NCBI RefSeq assembly: GCF_013391105.1
Contig: NZ_CP058335.1
Span: forward strand, 1,488,001 to 1,552,000
Source of the DNA: Natronomonas salina
GTDB taxonomy: Archaea; Halobacteriota; Halobacteria; Halobacteriales; Haloarculaceae
DNA: 64,000 nt
Reading direction: 5' to 3'
Below are positions 39,174-51,080 of this stretch, in pieces; the first letter of the stretch is position 1; each line of letters opens with the position of its first letter. Made by a program: the position numbers and the translations under genes. The notes beneath the pieces were generated by a model. It was not told the origin of the DNA. It made no database searches and worked only from the letters and a program-made list of their open reading frames with translations.

Positions 39174-40013
39174 ATGGAGAACATCACGCTCGACGAGCGC
39201 GACCGAGCGGCGCTCGAGCGGCTCCGCGAGGGGAGTGCCGACGTCGACGCGCTGGCCGAGGGCGTCGGCGCCGACCGCGAGTACCTCGAGGACCGGCTGC
39301 CGGAACTCGCGGACAACGGGCTCGTCGAGCGTGAGGGCGACGCCTACGCGCTGACCGACGACGGCGAGCGGGTGATCGAGGCCACCGGCGAGATGGACGA
39401 CCGCGTCGACACGCCGCCCGCCGTGGAGGGTCGCATCCTCGCGTTCGACCTGCCGCCGGACCAGGAGTCGGCGCTCCGGGGGGCCTTCGCGTTCCTGCAG
39501 TACTGGGGCGAGGCGACCGCGGGCGAGATCGTCGACGGCGTCTACAGCGAGACGCCGGCCGGCTTCGACTCCCCCACTTCGTGGTGGCGCGAGTGCGTCC
39601 GCGACCGACTCGCCGAACTTCCCGAGGTCGAACCCTCGCACTCGACCGACGAGCCCTGGCGCTACGACGGCACGCCCGGCGTCGAGGCGTCCGGCGACGG
39701 CCGGGACGTCGCCGGCGAGGTCGCGGGCGAGGCCAGCGTCAGGTTCGCGCTCGCCGAACTCGGCCTCGACGACGAGGCGCGGCTGGCGGTCCGGCGGGTC
39801 TTCGACCTCCTCGTGGAACTCGGCGAGGTGTCGTCGGCCGAGGCCATAGAGCAGGTCTACCCCGACCACGACGCGGGCTACCCGTCGCCGACCGAGTGGT
39901 GGGACGACTGCGTCCAGCCCGCCCTGGAGTCGCTGCCGGGGGTCGAACGGGTGGACGGCGACCGCGAGCGCTGGCGGTACCACGCCGTCGACGCCGAACC
40001 GACGTCGGCCTGA
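39174..40013 (+). CDS. HTH protein with an internally duplicated domain
   Basis: 279 aa, not a named family. Residues about 5-75 are a winged helix (DERDRAALERLREGSADVDALAEGV..., VEREGDAYALTDDGERVIEA). Two copies of a 50-residue unit follow, at about 100-150 and 205-252: in each a helix (FLQYWGEATAGEIVDGVY / LLVELGEVSSAEAIEQVY), then SPTSWW or SPTEWW, then a helix ending in LPEVE or LPGVE. The repeated S-P-T-x-W-W motif suggests a bespoke binding or dimerisation module. It sits just after sufS on the same strand (73 bp) but no functional link is evident. Confidence 0.75.
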   Translation: MENITLDERDRAALERLREGSADVDALAEGVGADREYLEDRLPELADNGLVEREGDAYALTDDGERVIEATGEMDDRVDTPPAVEGRILAFDLPPDQESALRGAFAFLQYWGEATAGEIVDGVYSETPAGFDSPTSWWRECVRDRLAELPEVEPSHSTDEPWRYDGTPGVEASGDGRDVAGEVAGEASVRFALAELGLDDEARLAVRRVFDLLVELGEVSSAEAIEQVYPDHDAGYPSPTEWWDDCVQPALESLPGVERVDGDRERWRYHAVDAEPTSA

Positions 40014-40037
40014 ACGGCGAGGAGGCGCGGGCGGCGG

Positions 40038-41414
40038 TCAGTCCGCGCCGGCTTCCCGGCCCGCGCGTTCGGCGCCGGCGCGGCGCCGTTCGTCGGGCGC
40101 GTCGAGCAGCGACTCGACCGCGGGGTCGAGCCTGGAGACCGTTCGGCGGCCGTCCCGCTCCTGGACGACCAGTCCCTCGTCGGCGAGCCGCGAGAGGTGG
40201 TAGGAGACCGTGCTGTAGCTCTTCTCGACGCGGTCGACGACGTCGCCGACGGTGGCCCGACCCTGCTCGTGGAGCGTCTCGAGGACGGCGGCGCTGGACT
40301 CCTCCCGGAGTGCGGCCGCGAGTTGCTCGTTCTCCGCGCCGAGCGGGTAGAGCCGCCGGTTGCCCCGGAGCTTCCGGGAGACGACGACCCGCTCGCGTTC
40401 GAGTATCTTGACGTGGTGGCGGACCGTCGACAGCGGCGTATCGAGGGCCTCGGCGAGTTCGGTGAGCGTCCGCCCCGGCGACTCGCCAACCAGGTCGTGG
40501 ATGCGCTCGCGCGTCTCGTGTTCGAGCGGGTCCGAGCCGTCGCGGCTGCGGTAGCGGAACAGGACGAACGCTCGCCCGGCCCAGCCGGAGGCGGCGCTCG
40601 CCGCCCCCGAGAGGGCGCCGACCCACGGTCCCGCCGCGACGGCGAACAGCGCCGTCCCGAGCGCCGGTGCGACGTCGAGCGGTGCCGCGGGGTCGAATCC
40701 GTCCGTTCCGGTGGCAGCCTCCGGTCCCGCACCGGAGCCCTCCTCGGCCGACCCGGACCCGTCGACGTCCTGGGTGGGGGTCGGGGGCGAGGCCTCGCCG
40801 TGCGCAACTGCGGTATCGTCAGCAGCGACTACGGGTGCTATCTCGGTATCGGTGGTTTCCTCGTGAGCGATCTTGCCCCGCGACCGGGGAGCGAGCCCGT
40901 CGCCGTCGAGCGGGACCCGCAACGTCCTGTCCCCGACGGTCGAGCCAGTACGAACCTCGACCTCGACCGCCGAGCCGGAGACCGTCAGGCGGGGCACCTC
41001 GAGGGCCAGCAGCGAGCGCAAGCGCGGCTGGGGCGGGTCGGCCGCCTCGTCGCTGGGACGAGTAGCATCGCCTGAACTGGTGGCCCCCTCGTCGCCACCG
41101 AGGTCGTCCTGTCCCTCGCGTCCGGGGTCCGAACGGCCGTCCGTCTCGGTCTCGACGACCGCCAGCGAACCGTTCGTCGCGTTCTCGACCGCATCGTCCG
41201 TAGCGTCGACGGTGGCCCGGACCGTCTCGCCCGTGGCGTTCGTGACGTTCCCGATGGTGTCGGTGATCGAGAGGCCGAGTCCATCGCCCTCGTCGCCGGA
41301 CGAAGCGTCCGCACCGGTGGCCGAAATCGCGGCGCTCGCGGTGGTGGCGAACGGCGCCGCCGCCACGAGCAGGACGAGGCACGTCGCGACGACCGTCCGG
41401 CCGGTCCGTTCCAT
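40038..41414 (-). CDS. Membrane-anchored dual winged-helix transcriptional regulator (paralogue A)
   Basis: 458 aa. A Sec-type signal peptide (about 1-29; TVVATCLVLLVAAAPFATTASA) leads an exterior region with four N-glycosylation sequons (N56, N59, N78, N81), acidic Ser/Gly linkers and a beta-rich segment (LTVSGSAVEVEV, about 138-172). A hydrophobic stretch (about 247-285) is followed by RSRDGSDPLEHETRERI and two winged helices: LTELAEALDTPLSTVRHHVKIL (about 317-338) and ATVGDVVDRVEKSYSTVSYHL (about 387-408). It reads as a one-component transmembrane regulator: sensing outside, DNA binding inside. A paralogue lies at 49638-51080. TATA-like AAATAAGG is about 75 bp upstream. Confidence 0.85.
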   Translation of the reverse strand: MERTGRTVVATCLVLLVAAAPFATTASAAISATGADASSGDEGDGLGLSITDTIGNVTNATGETVRATVDATDDAVENATNGSLAVVETETDGRSDPGREGQDDLGGDEGATSSGDATRPSDEAADPPQPRLRSLLALEVPRLTVSGSAVEVEVRTGSTVGDRTLRVPLDGDGLAPRSRGKIAHEETTDTEIAPVVAADDTAVAHGEASPPTPTQDVDGSGSAEEGSGAGPEAATGTDGFDPAAPLDVAPALGTALFAVAAGPWVGALSGAASAASGWAGRAFVLFRYRSRDGSDPLEHETRERIHDLVGESPGRTLTELAEALDTPLSTVRHHVKILERERVVVSRKLRGNRRLYPLGAENEQLAAALREESSAAVLETLHEQGRATVGDVVDRVEKSYSTVSYHLSRLADEGLVVQERDGRRTVSRLDPAVESLLDAPDERRRAGAERAGREAGAD

Positions 41415-43896: not shown

Positions 43897-43965
43897 ATGA
43901 GTTACTCGCCACGGGAGAGGAGGACCTCGGAACGGTACGACTACACCCGTCGACGACCGGGATGA
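43897..43965 (+). CDS. 22-residue Arg-rich leader ORF coupled to the sensor gene
   Basis: ATG 43897 to TGA 43965 encodes MSYSPRERRTSERYDYTRRRPG. Its TGA overlaps the ATG of the downstream PAS sensor (ATGA, 43962-43965). A TATA-like GATAAAG at 43871-43877 is about 23 bp upstream and another AT-rich box (GATTATT, about 43860-43866) about 34 bp, so the transcript probably begins at or just before this ATG. The peptide is very basic (seven Arg) in an otherwise acidic proteome. It may be a real small protein, a leader controlling the sensor, or chance. Confidence 0.4.
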   Translation: MSYSPRERRTSERYDYTRRRPG

Positions 43966-45566
43966 CCGCGGGCTCCGGCGGGGAGGATGGCGTCGCGGAG
44001 TCCCAGTGGTTCGACGCCATCACGCGGACGGTCGGCGACGGCATCTACCAGCTCGACGAGCGGGGTCGGTTCGTCCGGATCAACCAGGCGGTCGAGGACG
44101 TGACCGGCTACGACCGCGAGGAGCTCCTCGGCGAGAGCGCGCGGCTCGTGCTCACCGACGAGAGCTACCGGCGGACCGAACGGCGGATACGCGAACTCCT
44201 GGGATCCGAGGAGAACATCGCCAGTCAGGAGATGACCCTGGTCACCGCCGACGGCGAGGAGATACCGGTCGAGAACCGCCTGGCGGTACTGGAGTCCGAC
44301 GGGGAGTTCCTCGGGTCCGCGGGCATCGTCCGCGACATCACCGAGCGGAAGCGACGGGAACGGCAGCTCCGGAGCCAGCGCGACGAACTCGAGCGGCTCG
44401 ACCGCATCAACGGTATCATCCGCGACACCATCCGGACGCTGGTGAGCGCCTCGGACCGGGCGGAGATCGTCGAGGCGGTCTGTGAGCGGCTGGGGGACTC
44501 GGACGCGTACCTCGCCGCCTGGATCGGCGACCGCGACCCCTCGAACGACGGCATCGAGCCGGTGGCCCGCGCGGGCGTCGACGCGGCGGCCCTCGAAGGC
44601 CACATCGAAGGAACCGACGGTCTCGTCGACGGCGAGTCGCCGTTCCGGACCGGCGAGGTGGCCGTGTCGGACGTCGCCACGGACGACCCACTTCCCACTG
44701 CCCTCGGCGCGCCGGAAGCGCTGTCGGCCGCGGCCATCCCGCTGGGCTACGGCGACCCGTCTACAGCTCGCTGTACGTCTACACCGACCGTCCGGACGGC
44801 TTCGGGGACGGGGAGCTCGAGGTGCTCCGGGAGCTCGGCGAGACCATCGGGCTCGCGGTGAACGCCCTCGAGACGAAACGGCTGCTGTACGCCGACACCG
44901 TCACCGAACTCGAGTTCCGGTACGACGACTCCGAGCTACTGGGTGTCGCACTCACAGAGTGGCTGGGCGGTACCGTCGAGTTCGAGGCCATCGTCCCCGG
45001 CGACGACGGGGCGGTCCTCGCCTACGTCTCGGTGAGCGGCGCCGAACCCGAACGGGCGGCCGAGGCGGCCGCCGCGCACCCGGCAGTCGCGGACGCCGAG
45101 GTCGCCACCGCCGACGGCGATGCCGGCCTCCTGTTGCTGACCGTCACCGGGCGGACGCCGGCGACGGCGATGCGGGAGGCCGGCGGCCGGGTCGAGCGAG
45201 CCGTCGTCGAGGAGGGGAAGGGCCGCATCGTCGGCACGGTCGCCGCCGAGGCCGACACGCGACGCGCGGTCGAGCTGTTCCGGCGGTCGTTCCCCGACGC
45301 GACGCTGGTCGCCCAGCGGGATGTCGAGCGGCCGGTCCAGACCCCCCAGGAGTTCCGCCAGCAGGTCCTCGAATCGGCTCACCGAGAAGCAGCAGCGGGC
45401 CCTCGAGGCGGCGTTCTTCGGGGACTACTTCCAGCGTCCGCGATCCATCACCGGGACCGAACTGGCGGACTCCCTCGACGTCTCGTCCTCGACGTTCCAC
45501 CAGCATCTGCAGACCGGCCTCAGGAAGGTCCTCGCTGCCGTCTTCGATTCGCCTAGGCAGGACTGA
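43962..45566 (+). pseudogene. PAS/GAF sensor with HTH_10 (bacterio-opsin activator type), disrupted by two compensating frame changes
   Basis: Three reading-frame segments together form one 534-residue protein. Segment 1 (43962 to about 44759) has a PAS domain (GIYQLDERGRFVRINQAVEDVTGYD, split for length) and a GAF-type region. Segment 2 (about 44759 to 45373, one frame back) continues without a stop: YSSLYVYTDRPDGFGDGELE, then the bacterio-opsin-activator sensory domain. Segment 3 (about 45375 to 45566) returns to the first frame with RLTEKQQRALEAAFFGDYF and ADSLDVSSSTFHQHL, the HTH_10 domain. A single base seems missing at CCCGTCTAC (44756-44764) and one extra at GAATCGG (45371-45377). Either a young pseudogene or sequencing/assembly errors. 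Confidence 0.85.
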
Positions 45567-48827: not shown

Positions 48828-48941
48828 GCCCGGTGGTTGCTCGTCGACCACTAAAAGGCGGTCGGACGCGCCGCGGAGGGGCCGCGACGCCGCGACGGCC
48901 GAACAGCAAGCCACTTGGTACCCGCCTCCCACCCGGCGTGC

Positions 48942-49433
48942 ATGTTCCGAAGCGGGGCCTTCGTCGCCGACCACATCACCCCCACGACCGCCGAGCAGGT
49001 ACAGCCTAACGGCGTCGACCTGACCCTCGACGCCGTCTTCGAACAGCGCGAGCCCGGACGCATCGGCCGCGAGGGCAAGGAGATCGGCGACCGCCAGCCG
49101 CGGCACGCCGACCCCACCGGCGACGAGGCGGAGACGGACGATGGAGACACCTACTACCTCCCGCCGGGCGGCTACGTCGTCCGCTACGCCGAGACCGTCG
49201 CCATCCCCGAGGAGCACGTCGGCTTCATCTACCCCCGGTCGTCGCTGCTCCGGAACTCCTGTATGCTGAACACGGCCGTCTGGGACGCCGGGTACGAGGG
49301 GAAGGGAGAGGGGCTCCTCCAGGTCCACCACGACATCGAGATCGAGCGCGGCGCCCGCATCGCCCAGATCGTCTTCGCCGACGCCGACCACGAGACCACC
49401 TACGACGGGAGCTACCAGAAAGAGAACCTCTGA
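48942..49433 (+). CDS. dut: Deoxyuridine triphosphatase (dCTP deaminase/dUTPase family)
   Basis: 163 aa. MFRSGAFVADHI at the start, VQPNGVDLTLD, the key motif GFIYPRSSLLRNSC (nucleotide-binding arginine and serine), NTAVWDAGYEGKGEG and the C-terminal ARIAQIVFAD are characteristic of archaeal dUTPase/Dcd trimers. It hydrolyses dUTP and so keeps uracil out of DNA, or makes dUMP from dCTP if bifunctional; the two activities cannot be separated by eye. The start at 48942 is preferred over the 9-residue longer frame. Confidence 0.92.
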   Translation: MFRSGAFVADHITPTTAEQVQPNGVDLTLDAVFEQREPGRIGREGKEIGDRQPRHADPTGDEAETDDGDTYYLPPGGYVVRYAETVAIPEEHVGFIYPRSSLLRNSCMLNTAVWDAGYEGKGEGLLQVHHDIEIERGARIAQIVFADADHETTYDGSYQKENL

Positions 49434-49637
49434 AGCGAATCGAGTCGCCTTCGCCGACCCGACGGCGCCGCTCCCGCCTGCGTCGACCCCCGCAGTTATC
49501 AGGCCGGCCGCGTCCTCGTTATCAACCTTCTCCCGCGTCCCCCGGCGACCAACTTGAAAGCCCAGATATTGCCTGCCCAACGCCTATCCAGAGCTAGTCG
49601 GATACAACGACAACTCGGAGGTCGGGGCTCCGCTCTC

Positions 49638-51080
49638 ATGTCAGGGACAATGACGCGGCAAGTACTCGCCGTCGTGGCGGCCGTCGCGGTGGTCTGTTCG
49701 ATAGCCGGCGCGCCGGTCGCGGCGGCCGCGGCGATCGATACCGACACGGACGGCGGGCTGTCGGGTCTCAGTTCCGGCGGCCAGTCGGCCGACGGGTCGG
49801 ACGAGAACAGTACTGCGGACTCCGGAAACGAAGACGAAGCGGCCGACGACAGTGGGGGAGACGGCGGGGCTGACGACACCAACGGAACGGCGAACGGGAC
49901 CGACGGGAACAATTCGACCGACGACGGCGACGAGTCGGGCGATAACTCCTCCACCAGCGACTCGACGCTCCGCAGCGGCGACGAGACCGACGCTGGGTCG
50001 GACAACGAGAGCGACGACCCGTCCACCGACGAGGTGGCCGAAAAGGTGGAAGAGACGGTTAACGAGACCGTCGCCGAGACGGCAGCGGACGTCGAGAACC
50101 GGACCGACGACGTGCAGACCCCCGACGTCGTAAATCTGGACGTCGATAACGGCACCTTAGCTAACGCGACCGACGAGCTCGTCGAAACCGTCCGGCTCGA
50201 CGACTCGCTGGGACTGGGCGTACTCGAACTCACCGAGCCCCTGTCGGCCGACGGCGGAACCGTCGACGGGTCGCACACCTACGAAGAGACGGTGACGACG
50301 AACCGCGACGCGGCGCCGACGGCCACCGAGTCGACGCCGGACGGCGACTCCGACGAGGAGACGGCCGCGACGGCGGTCGGCAGCAGCGGCGGGGAGCAGA
50401 ACCCCGCCGACCCCGCCGGCGCCGGCGCGGCGATGGGCCTGGGAGCGCTGGCGACTGCCGCCGCACTCCGGGGGTCGCCGCTCCTGGTCGGCTCGAAAGC
50501 GGCCAGTTCGAGCGGCTGGGTCTCGCGGCTCGTCGACCGGCTCCGCCCCTTCGTCTTCCCGCTGCGGTACAGCCGCTACGACGACTCCGACCCCCTCGAG
50601 CACGAGGCCCGCGAGCGCGTCTACGAGATCGTCGACGGGACGCCGGGCGCCTACCTCTCGGAGGTCTCCCAGGAGGCCGGCCTCCCGCTGTCGACCACCC
50701 GCCACCACATCAGGATCCTCGAGCGCGAGGACCTCGTGACCGGCGCGAAGCTCCACGGCAAGCGCCGGTTCTTCCCCGCCTACGCGGAGGGCAAGGAGCT
50801 CGCCGCCGCCCTCAACGACGACTCGACGGCGAGCATCATCGACGCCATCGCCCGCATCGGCGCCGCGTCGGTCAGCGACCTCGCCGACGAGCTCGGCCGC
50901 GACCCCAGCACCGTCAGCCACCACCTCCAGCGGCTCGAGGACGACGGCGTCATCACCCGCGAGCGCGACGGCCGCGCCGTGGTGAGCCGGCTCTCGGCGG
51001 AGGCCCGGACGGCGCTGGAACCCGAGTCGGCACCCGAGACCGGCGAGTCCGGCGAAGTTCTGGCCGGCAGCGCCGACTGA
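49638..51080 (+). CDS. Membrane-anchored dual winged-helix transcriptional regulator (paralogue B)
   Basis: 480 aa from ATG 49638 (an alternative at 49650). The signal peptide (QVLAVVAAVAVVCSIAGAPVAAA) leads an acidic Asp/Ser/Thr/Asn-rich exterior of about 250 residues with many Asn-X-Thr/Ser sequons. A hydrophobic segment (GAGAAMGLGALATAAALRGSP) is followed by YSRYDDSDPLEHEARERVYEI and two winged helices: LPLSTTRHHIRILEREDLV and RDPSTVSHHLQRLEDDGVI. The juxtamembrane SDPLEHE motif and both winged helices match paralogue A at 40038-41414; the exteriors differ. It is probably a surface-signal-responsive regulator. No adjacent target is certain. Confidence 0.85.
   Translation: MSGTMTRQVLAVVAAVAVVCSIAGAPVAAAAAIDTDTDGGLSGLSSGGQSADGSDENSTADSGNEDEAADDSGGDGGADDTNGTANGTDGNNSTDDGDESGDNSSTSDSTLRSGDETDAGSDNESDDPSTDEVAEKVEETVNETVAETAADVENRTDDVQTPDVVNLDVDNGTLANATDELVETVRLDDSLGLGVLELTEPLSADGGTVDGSHTYEETVTTNRDAAPTATESTPDGDSDEETAATAVGSSGGEQNPADPAGAGAAMGLGALATAAALRGSPLLVGSKAASSSGWVSRLVDRLRPFVFPLRYSRYDDSDPLEHEARERVYEIVDGTPGAYLSEVSQEAGLPLSTTRHHIRILEREDLVTGAKLHGKRRFFPAYAEGKELAAALNDDSTASIIDAIARIGAASVSDLADELGRDPSTVSHHLQRLEDDGVITRERDGRAVVSRLSAEARTALEPESAPETGESGEVLAGSAD

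Follow-up and report, generated by a model that had tools for sequence, protein, structure and literature searches.

A haloarchaeal family of putative membrane-anchored tandem winged-helix proteins and a candidate operator upstream of secreted-peptidase genes

The DNA analyzed here is a 64-kb stretch of the Natronomonas salina genome (hereafter the window), in which gene B (49638..51080, forward strand) encodes a putative membrane-anchored tandem winged-helix regulator of 480 amino acids. Its open reading frame is intact, as judged from the ORF list and the translation, and its start codon is backed by nine syntenic congeneric orthologs, which start with MSN, MSK or MSF and carry the same signal peptide. 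In these nine congeners, the genes for SufS, NifU, PanE, a sulfatase, a NifU-like protein, a lipoprotein, a DUF5783 protein and dCTP deaminase (dcd; 48915..49433, forward strand, in the window) lead up to B, a block that is complete as far as the flanking sequence was covered. The conserved neighborhood is thus the upstream one, with dcd as the ancestral neighbor; downstream, neither the deacetylase gene nor the beta-helix genes are kept beside B. A paralog with the same interior, gene A (40038..41414, reverse strand), encodes 458 amino acids, and the family has five members in the N. salina genome.

The B protein starts with a hydrophobic signal peptide kept in the orthologs (residues 1–30, MSGTMTRQVLAVVAAVAVVCSIAGAPVAAA; 49638..49727, this and all following parts of B on the forward strand; KD-19 maximum 2.54). 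The exterior (residues 31–258; 49728..50411) is of low complexity, rich in D, S, T, N and G, and predicted to be disordered, with AlphaFold pLDDT values mostly below 50; its sole predicted helix comprises residues 130–153 around VAEKVEETVNETVAETAADVEN (50025..50096; pLDDT ∼65–71). Residues 259–277 (PAGAGAAMGLGALATAAAL; 50412..50468) form the probable single transmembrane segment, which is A/G-rich and only marginally hydrophobic (KD-19 of 1.35 versus the usual threshold of 1.6) and in which AlphaFold, at low confidence, models no helix. An equivalent A/G-rich segment is found ∼41–65 residues ahead of winged helix 1 in most long family members. A juxtamembrane helix modeled by AlphaFold (residues 294–306; 50517..50555) leads to the motif LRYSRYDDSDPLEH, which is invariant among the aligned Natronomonas orthologs. 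Winged helix 1 (residues 323–383; 50604..50786) matches PF24266, HTH_HVO_0163_N, with 46.6 bits at a cut-off of 31, and winged helix 2 (residues 396–448; 50823..50981; PF12840/PF01022/PF25212) scores above the cut-offs of the HTH_20, HTH_5 and MarR families at residues 396–445. AlphaFold models both with high confidence, pLDDT values exceeding 90 between about residues 320 and 460. The protein ends in a conserved tail (...SAD-COOH; 51069..51077) that corresponds to the AD/ADD endings of most family members.

Lysine and arginine are few in the exterior and several past residues 259–277. Together with the signal peptide and the sequons, this distribution is compatible with a topology that has the exterior outside and the winged helices inside the cell, and B is most likely a single-pass transmembrane transcription regulator with an acidic C-terminal tail. 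Foldseek returned only generic winged-helix folds, such as SelB, CzrA, SmtB and AntR. Although the score of B exceeds the NF033788 cut-off, residues 31–480 hold no cysteine, which argues against a classical metal site of the ArsR/SmtB metalloregulator type.

The initial annotation had described A and B as sharing their winged helices and the SDPLEHE motif, and this was confirmed by Pfam, AlphaFold and BLASTP, the alignment being confined to the transmembrane segment and interior (44% over 202 aa, E = 3e-46). The exterior of B is also rich in Asp, Ser, Thr and Asn as stated (D/E 28%, S/T 25%). It is not, however, much longer than that of A (∼225 versus ∼215 residues). That the two exteriors share no domain is correct insofar as neither contains a Pfam domain, but each has a short helical V/T-rich stretch (residues 130–153 in B and about 50–90 in A) like those seen repeatedly in other family members. 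The notion of a receptor family whose input domains diversify while the output is kept can be retained in part: the proteins are paralogous, with a kept output and variable exteriors, but distinct diversified input domains were not observed, and the 25 Pfam families shared most widely by 59 members included no sensory domain in the exteriors.

Comparison of the exteriors across genomes bore out the expectation that they evolve fast. While the interiors of the one-to-one syntenic B orthologs are 74–87% identical, their exteriors show 31–46% identity versus 26–33% for shuffled sequence, so that most fail to align, and alignment rises above the near-shuffle level only in the closest pairs (G002/G003/G016 and G009/G012). 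In five close pairs, the dN/dS ratio according to Nei-Gojobori was 0.34–0.67 for the exterior and 0.04–0.16 for the interior, with no sign of positive selection on the exterior. By these measures, the exterior is fast-evolving and under relaxed constraint. The unalignable exteriors and the dN/dS values indicate that, inside a single group of orthologs, the exterior diversifies through relaxed drift together with indels, and not through paralogs acquiring different domains.

The exterior does not appear to be free of constraint. In B, 11 NxS/T sequons are found versus 3.6 expected (p = 0.0002), and 47 exteriors of the family together contain 257, whereas shuffling gives 94.6, with no more than 121 in any of 500 rounds, and the reversed motif occurs 87 times. 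Family-wide, the exteriors show a hendecad periodicity at lags 4, 7, 11, 15, 18 and 22; as the sequences are related and not independent, the sequon and periodicity counts are descriptive. Taken together, enrichment and periodicity point to some remaining constraint, and the sequons support an exported, N-glycosylated exterior. The heavy glycosylation proposed for B agrees with its 11 sequons but is not a constant property, since individual B orthologs have anywhere between 0 and 11 of them. The exterior would act via physical properties such as length, charge, glycans and accessibility, and not as a folded ligand-binding domain; the family would consist of receptor-like proteins whose exterior is seemingly selected for bulk properties instead of a fold. 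In Natrialbaceae, several exteriors consist of 11-residue repeats such as NETTDDTEDAV, and a surface protein of N. salina (574082) with an operator of the family type has similar TVDDTTDTVDETTS repeats.

Relatives at E = 1e-20 or better are present in 65 of the 292 genomes of a class-level sample. In a maximum-likelihood tree of 97 interiors, B groups with members from Halorarius and Haloglomus (98/91), with the member from genome G115 just outside (89/68), while A falls into a separate Natronomonas clade (100/99), the base of which is drawn open; the two genes do not form a sister pair. The genes flanking A in N. salina, SufS and a hypothetical gene, adjoin without A in other Natronomonas, indicating that A has moved and that its 9-kb proximity to B is particular to this genome. 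A local tandem duplication as the origin of A and B is ruled out by synteny and the tree. At 39174–41414, A and a two-HTH gene of the HVO_A0261_N type form a small insertion between SufS and the hypothetical gene. Also in the window, a PAS-containing bat-like regulator (43962–45566) is split over frames into the pieces 43962–44861, 44822–45556 and 45321–45566, with three stops if read as one frame, representing either a frameshifted pseudogene or sequencing errors. In Natronomonas gomsonensis, the B region occurs with equal match score on scaffolds 1_1 and 1_2, probably owing to a redundant assembly. Across the family, 69 of 98 members end in AD or ADD, compared with 8 of 490 background genes, and 87 of the 98 end in D. 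The terminal AD/ADD follows a variable linker and is possibly a C-terminal short linear motif or degron. Short members (about 216–312 aa) have a signal-peptide-like N-terminus and mostly no clear second hydrophobic segment, which is hard to square with a cytoplasmic location of their winged helices.

Family members are repeatedly linked to genes for secreted subtilases. Orthologs of A lie divergent from a ∼1060-aa TAT-secreted subtilase gene in all five other Natronomonas genomes examined. For B-like genes, the order dcd, two co-directional subtilase genes and regulator is found in Halorarius, Haloglomus halophilum and family f8, and the B-clade member is also downstream of tandem subtilase genes in two sampled further Haloglomus genomes and in G115. 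Additional paralogs in G078, G115 and G325 are divergent from subtilase genes. Two different arrangements of regulator and subtilase are found, in several clades. In Haloglomus irregulare and Halocatena, dcd is near the regulator and there is no subtilase gene; in Natronomonas, B has lost its subtilase neighbors and was left adjoining dcd. A subtilase gene lies within about 4 kb of 16 of 39 family members in 15 genomes versus 0.55 expected, a comparison whose p-value overstates the association because the sample was partly chosen for adjacency and related genomes are not independent. The Natrialbaceae members have neither subtilase neighbors nor the 23-bp motif described below within the flanking sequence covered.

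The intergenic region between A and the subtilase gene holds a block that is conserved between species despite the strongly diverged proteins. A search from this block yielded the recurrent element TTCTGACAANNCNRTCNAAACGA, which, read on the other strand, matches a conserved block upstream of B in Natronomonas and Halorarius. On the coding strand, this 23-bp element reads TCGTTTGGACGGGTTTGTCAGAA and is directly followed by a TATA-like CTTTT(A/T) stretch. Start codons are usually located 31–58 nt past the element, as in leaderless transcripts, those of S8 genes 25–40 nt downstream. A direct-repeat structure that would suit two winged helices lacked significance in the element (p = 0.15 at shift 10), and no strong dyad was apparent. 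Among Natrialbaceae members, a different block of about GGAAAANGCGTATTACGCTCGA is shared in the promoter near the start; it is perhaps a distinct operator or a core promoter.

One search for the element gave 65 matches in 18 genomes and none for a reversed-pattern control. When up to two mismatches were allowed in a set of 109 genomes from the GTDB family, 74 matches fell into the 22 genomes that have a long family member and 9 into the 87 that have none, with three for the reversed pattern in all 109. The element was present in 18 of the 22 genomes with a long member versus 8 of the 87 without (Fisher p = 5e-11). Within Natronomonas, three to seven sites were found in each of six genomes with long members, and none in the six without. 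The genes following 60 unique sites encode 19 S8 peptidases, nine HTH_10 proteins, eight M14 peptidases, six LVIVD proteins and four surface proteins, as well as three TetR and two DUF7504 proteins, the rest being other or unassigned. A weight matrix built from these 60 sites also finds sites outside its training set: upstream of family members, before the subtilase genes of f8, and at the apparent operons and the two N. salina subtilase genes described next. The element occurs upstream of the family members themselves in several genera, and in three further genera (L130, L132 and L133/L134) it heads apparent operons of a secreted protein and a family member. In the N. salina genome, it precedes the subtilase genes at 306881 and 2902043 (scores 31.4 and 33.9), an HTH_10 gene (3745656) and the surface protein gene at 574082, and a weaker copy is found 31 nt before a short paralog.

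In the window, by contrast, the weight matrix found no element at all, including near the deacetylase and beta-helix genes, the best score being −0.8, whereas the sites used scored at least 30. The promoter region between dcd and B (49434..49637, forward strand) likewise lacks, in alignment and matrix scan, the element of the other Natronomonas orthologs; its proximal core-promoter block CTTGAAAGCCCAGATATTGCCTGCCCAACGCCTATCC (49553..49589, forward strand) is, by eye, similar in Natronomonas, Halorarius and Haloglomus. These results bear on the regulatory scheme of the initial annotation, in which A and B were receptors with diversified inputs and B controlled the neighboring deacetylase, lipoprotein and beta-helix genes. 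Such surface genes do lie within 5 kb downstream of B, and the interior is kept while the exterior varies. Yet the exteriors are predicted to be disordered and cannot be aligned between most syntenic orthologs, the downstream genes are not kept beside B in congeners, and, judged by the family motif, which is absent from the window, the proposed surface-glycan targets gain no support. We therefore consider that scheme very improbable.

On balance, and with moderate confidence, we favor the view that B, A and their relatives in several haloarchaeal families are membrane-bound regulators of an extracellular-proteolysis regulon acting via the candidate 23-bp element. The regulators would bind this asymmetric element where it abuts the upstream side of the TATA-like box in their targets, namely the genes for TAT-secreted S8 subtilases, TAT-secreted M14 carboxypeptidases, LVIVD proteins, surface proteins and an HTH_10 regulator, and the regulon would include many of the family regulators themselves, A and B of the window excepted. 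Since the position of the element directly upstream of the TATA-like box suggests an activator-type site, these tethered one-component proteins would probably act as activators. As A and B lack the element in their own promoters, the part assigned to B in this species is drawn from its orthologs. Counting against this view are genome G057, which has a long member and no site, the Natrialbaceae members with neither motif nor subtilase neighbors in the flanking sequence covered, and, for a reader with tandem winged helices, the lack of a significant direct repeat or strong dyad in the element.

Activator sites of Bat-type HTH_10 regulators lie directly upstream of a TATA-like box in a fixed orientation, as the 23-bp element does. 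Another factor, most plausibly an HTH_10 protein of the HVO_0513 type, might therefore bind the element, in which case A and B would be co-regulated outputs controlling something else. The Natronomonas genomes that carry the motif are precisely those with an ortholog of this HTH_10 protein at 77% or higher identity, and the HTH_10 gene itself bears a site in Natronomonas, Halorarius, Halocatena-like and f8 genomes. However, eight genomes (G022, G030, G039, G100, G106, G113, G174 and G325) combine a long family member with the lack of any HTH_10 match at E = 1e-60, and in every one of them the family locus bears a good site; conversely, G059, G060 and G087 have an HTH_10 homolog (48–52% identity) and no convincing site. 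This pattern of co-occurrence favors the tandem winged-helix proteins as putative binders, and we regard binding by HTH_10 as unlikely, although it deserves more weight than the other alternatives considered here.

In N. salina, the promoter of B lacks the operator, and subtilase neighbors of B are absent in the genus. B might be a decaying or re-specialized paralog in this species that has drifted to other targets or retains little function. It forms the longest terminal branch among the Natronomonas B proteins (0.20), and its first wing reads KLHGKRRF instead of the KLRGKRRF of the Natronomonas orthologs shown. Decay is nonetheless difficult to reconcile with an intact interior that is 74–81% identical to those of congeners, with the low interior dN/dS of the close Natronomonas pairs and with the persistence of the regulon in the N. 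salina genome. We judge it quite improbable.

If B and its relatives regulate secreted proteases, their predicted unfolded, glycosylated exterior and weak A/G-rich segment would make trimming by proteases an attractive candidate for the signal. The secreted subtilases and carboxypeptidases might trim or shed the exterior, with intramembrane cleavage of the A/G-rich segment as a possible second step, and the cutting would set the expression of the peptidase regulon in a feedback loop that reads extracellular proteolysis through an unfolded bait. Of the properties of residues 259–277, only the weak hydrophobicity and the A/G richness fit a rhomboid or site-2 protease substrate, and a paper on a haloarchaeal rhomboid makes no mention of transcription or HTH proteins. 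This extension of the favored model is doubtful.

In the literature searched, which largely excludes subscription journals, we found no description of the function, operator or regulon of the family; HVO_0163 appears only in one acetylome paper, and COG3398 and HVO_0513 are absent. Haloarchaeal secreted subtilases, the halolysins, are induced in late growth, and their regulatory proteins were stated in 2018 to be still undetermined (PMC6085418); no later identification was found in the same literature. A membrane regulator family, a precise candidate operator and a list of targets make this question directly testable and suggest how an archaeal cell might couple events outside the S-layer to the expression of exoenzymes. 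The best comparison on the side of the targets is the halolysin SptA of Natrinema sp. J7-2, a secreted subtilase whose gene is under cis-elements near the core promoter, upstream of and overlapping BRE/TATA (PMC6085418). Those elements are the semi-palindromes GAAATN7ATTTC and TTCTTN10AAGAA (PMC6085418), whereas the 23-bp element is asymmetric and was not seen upstream of the Natrialbaceae family members.

On the side of the regulators, B resembles several known groups. With the archaeal cytoplasmic two-HTH proteins of the HVO_0163 family (PF24266), it has winged helix 1 in common; a soluble-looking two-winged-helix member of that family in the N. salina genome (L006) has neither a signal peptide nor a long exterior. 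With the ArsR/SmtB metalloregulators (NF033788; CzrA and SmtB structures) it shares the winged-helix fold, but B has two tandem winged helices on a probable membrane anchor and a cysteine-free, presumably cytoplasmic part. Closest in kind are the transmembrane transcription regulators, one-component proteins that combine a DNA-binding domain with a membrane segment, for which regulation from the membrane has been proposed and which occur in 367 of 404 archaeal species analyzed (PMC10269533). The characterized archaeal case is ArnR/ArnR1 of Sulfolobus acidocaldarius, a pair of HTH paralogs in the membrane whose DNA-binding parts are nearly identical and which control surface structures (PMC6396743). 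ArnR consists of an N-terminal HTH, a HAMP domain, a sensing domain and two C-terminal transmembrane helices, and has no signal peptide or exterior of the B type (PMC6396743). Transmembrane transcription regulators are thus a widespread and already known kind of protein, of which B and its relatives probably represent a version with the order of ArnR reversed: a signal peptide and a putatively glycosylated, disordered exterior at the N-terminus, in place of a folded sensor domain, and the winged helices at the C-terminus.
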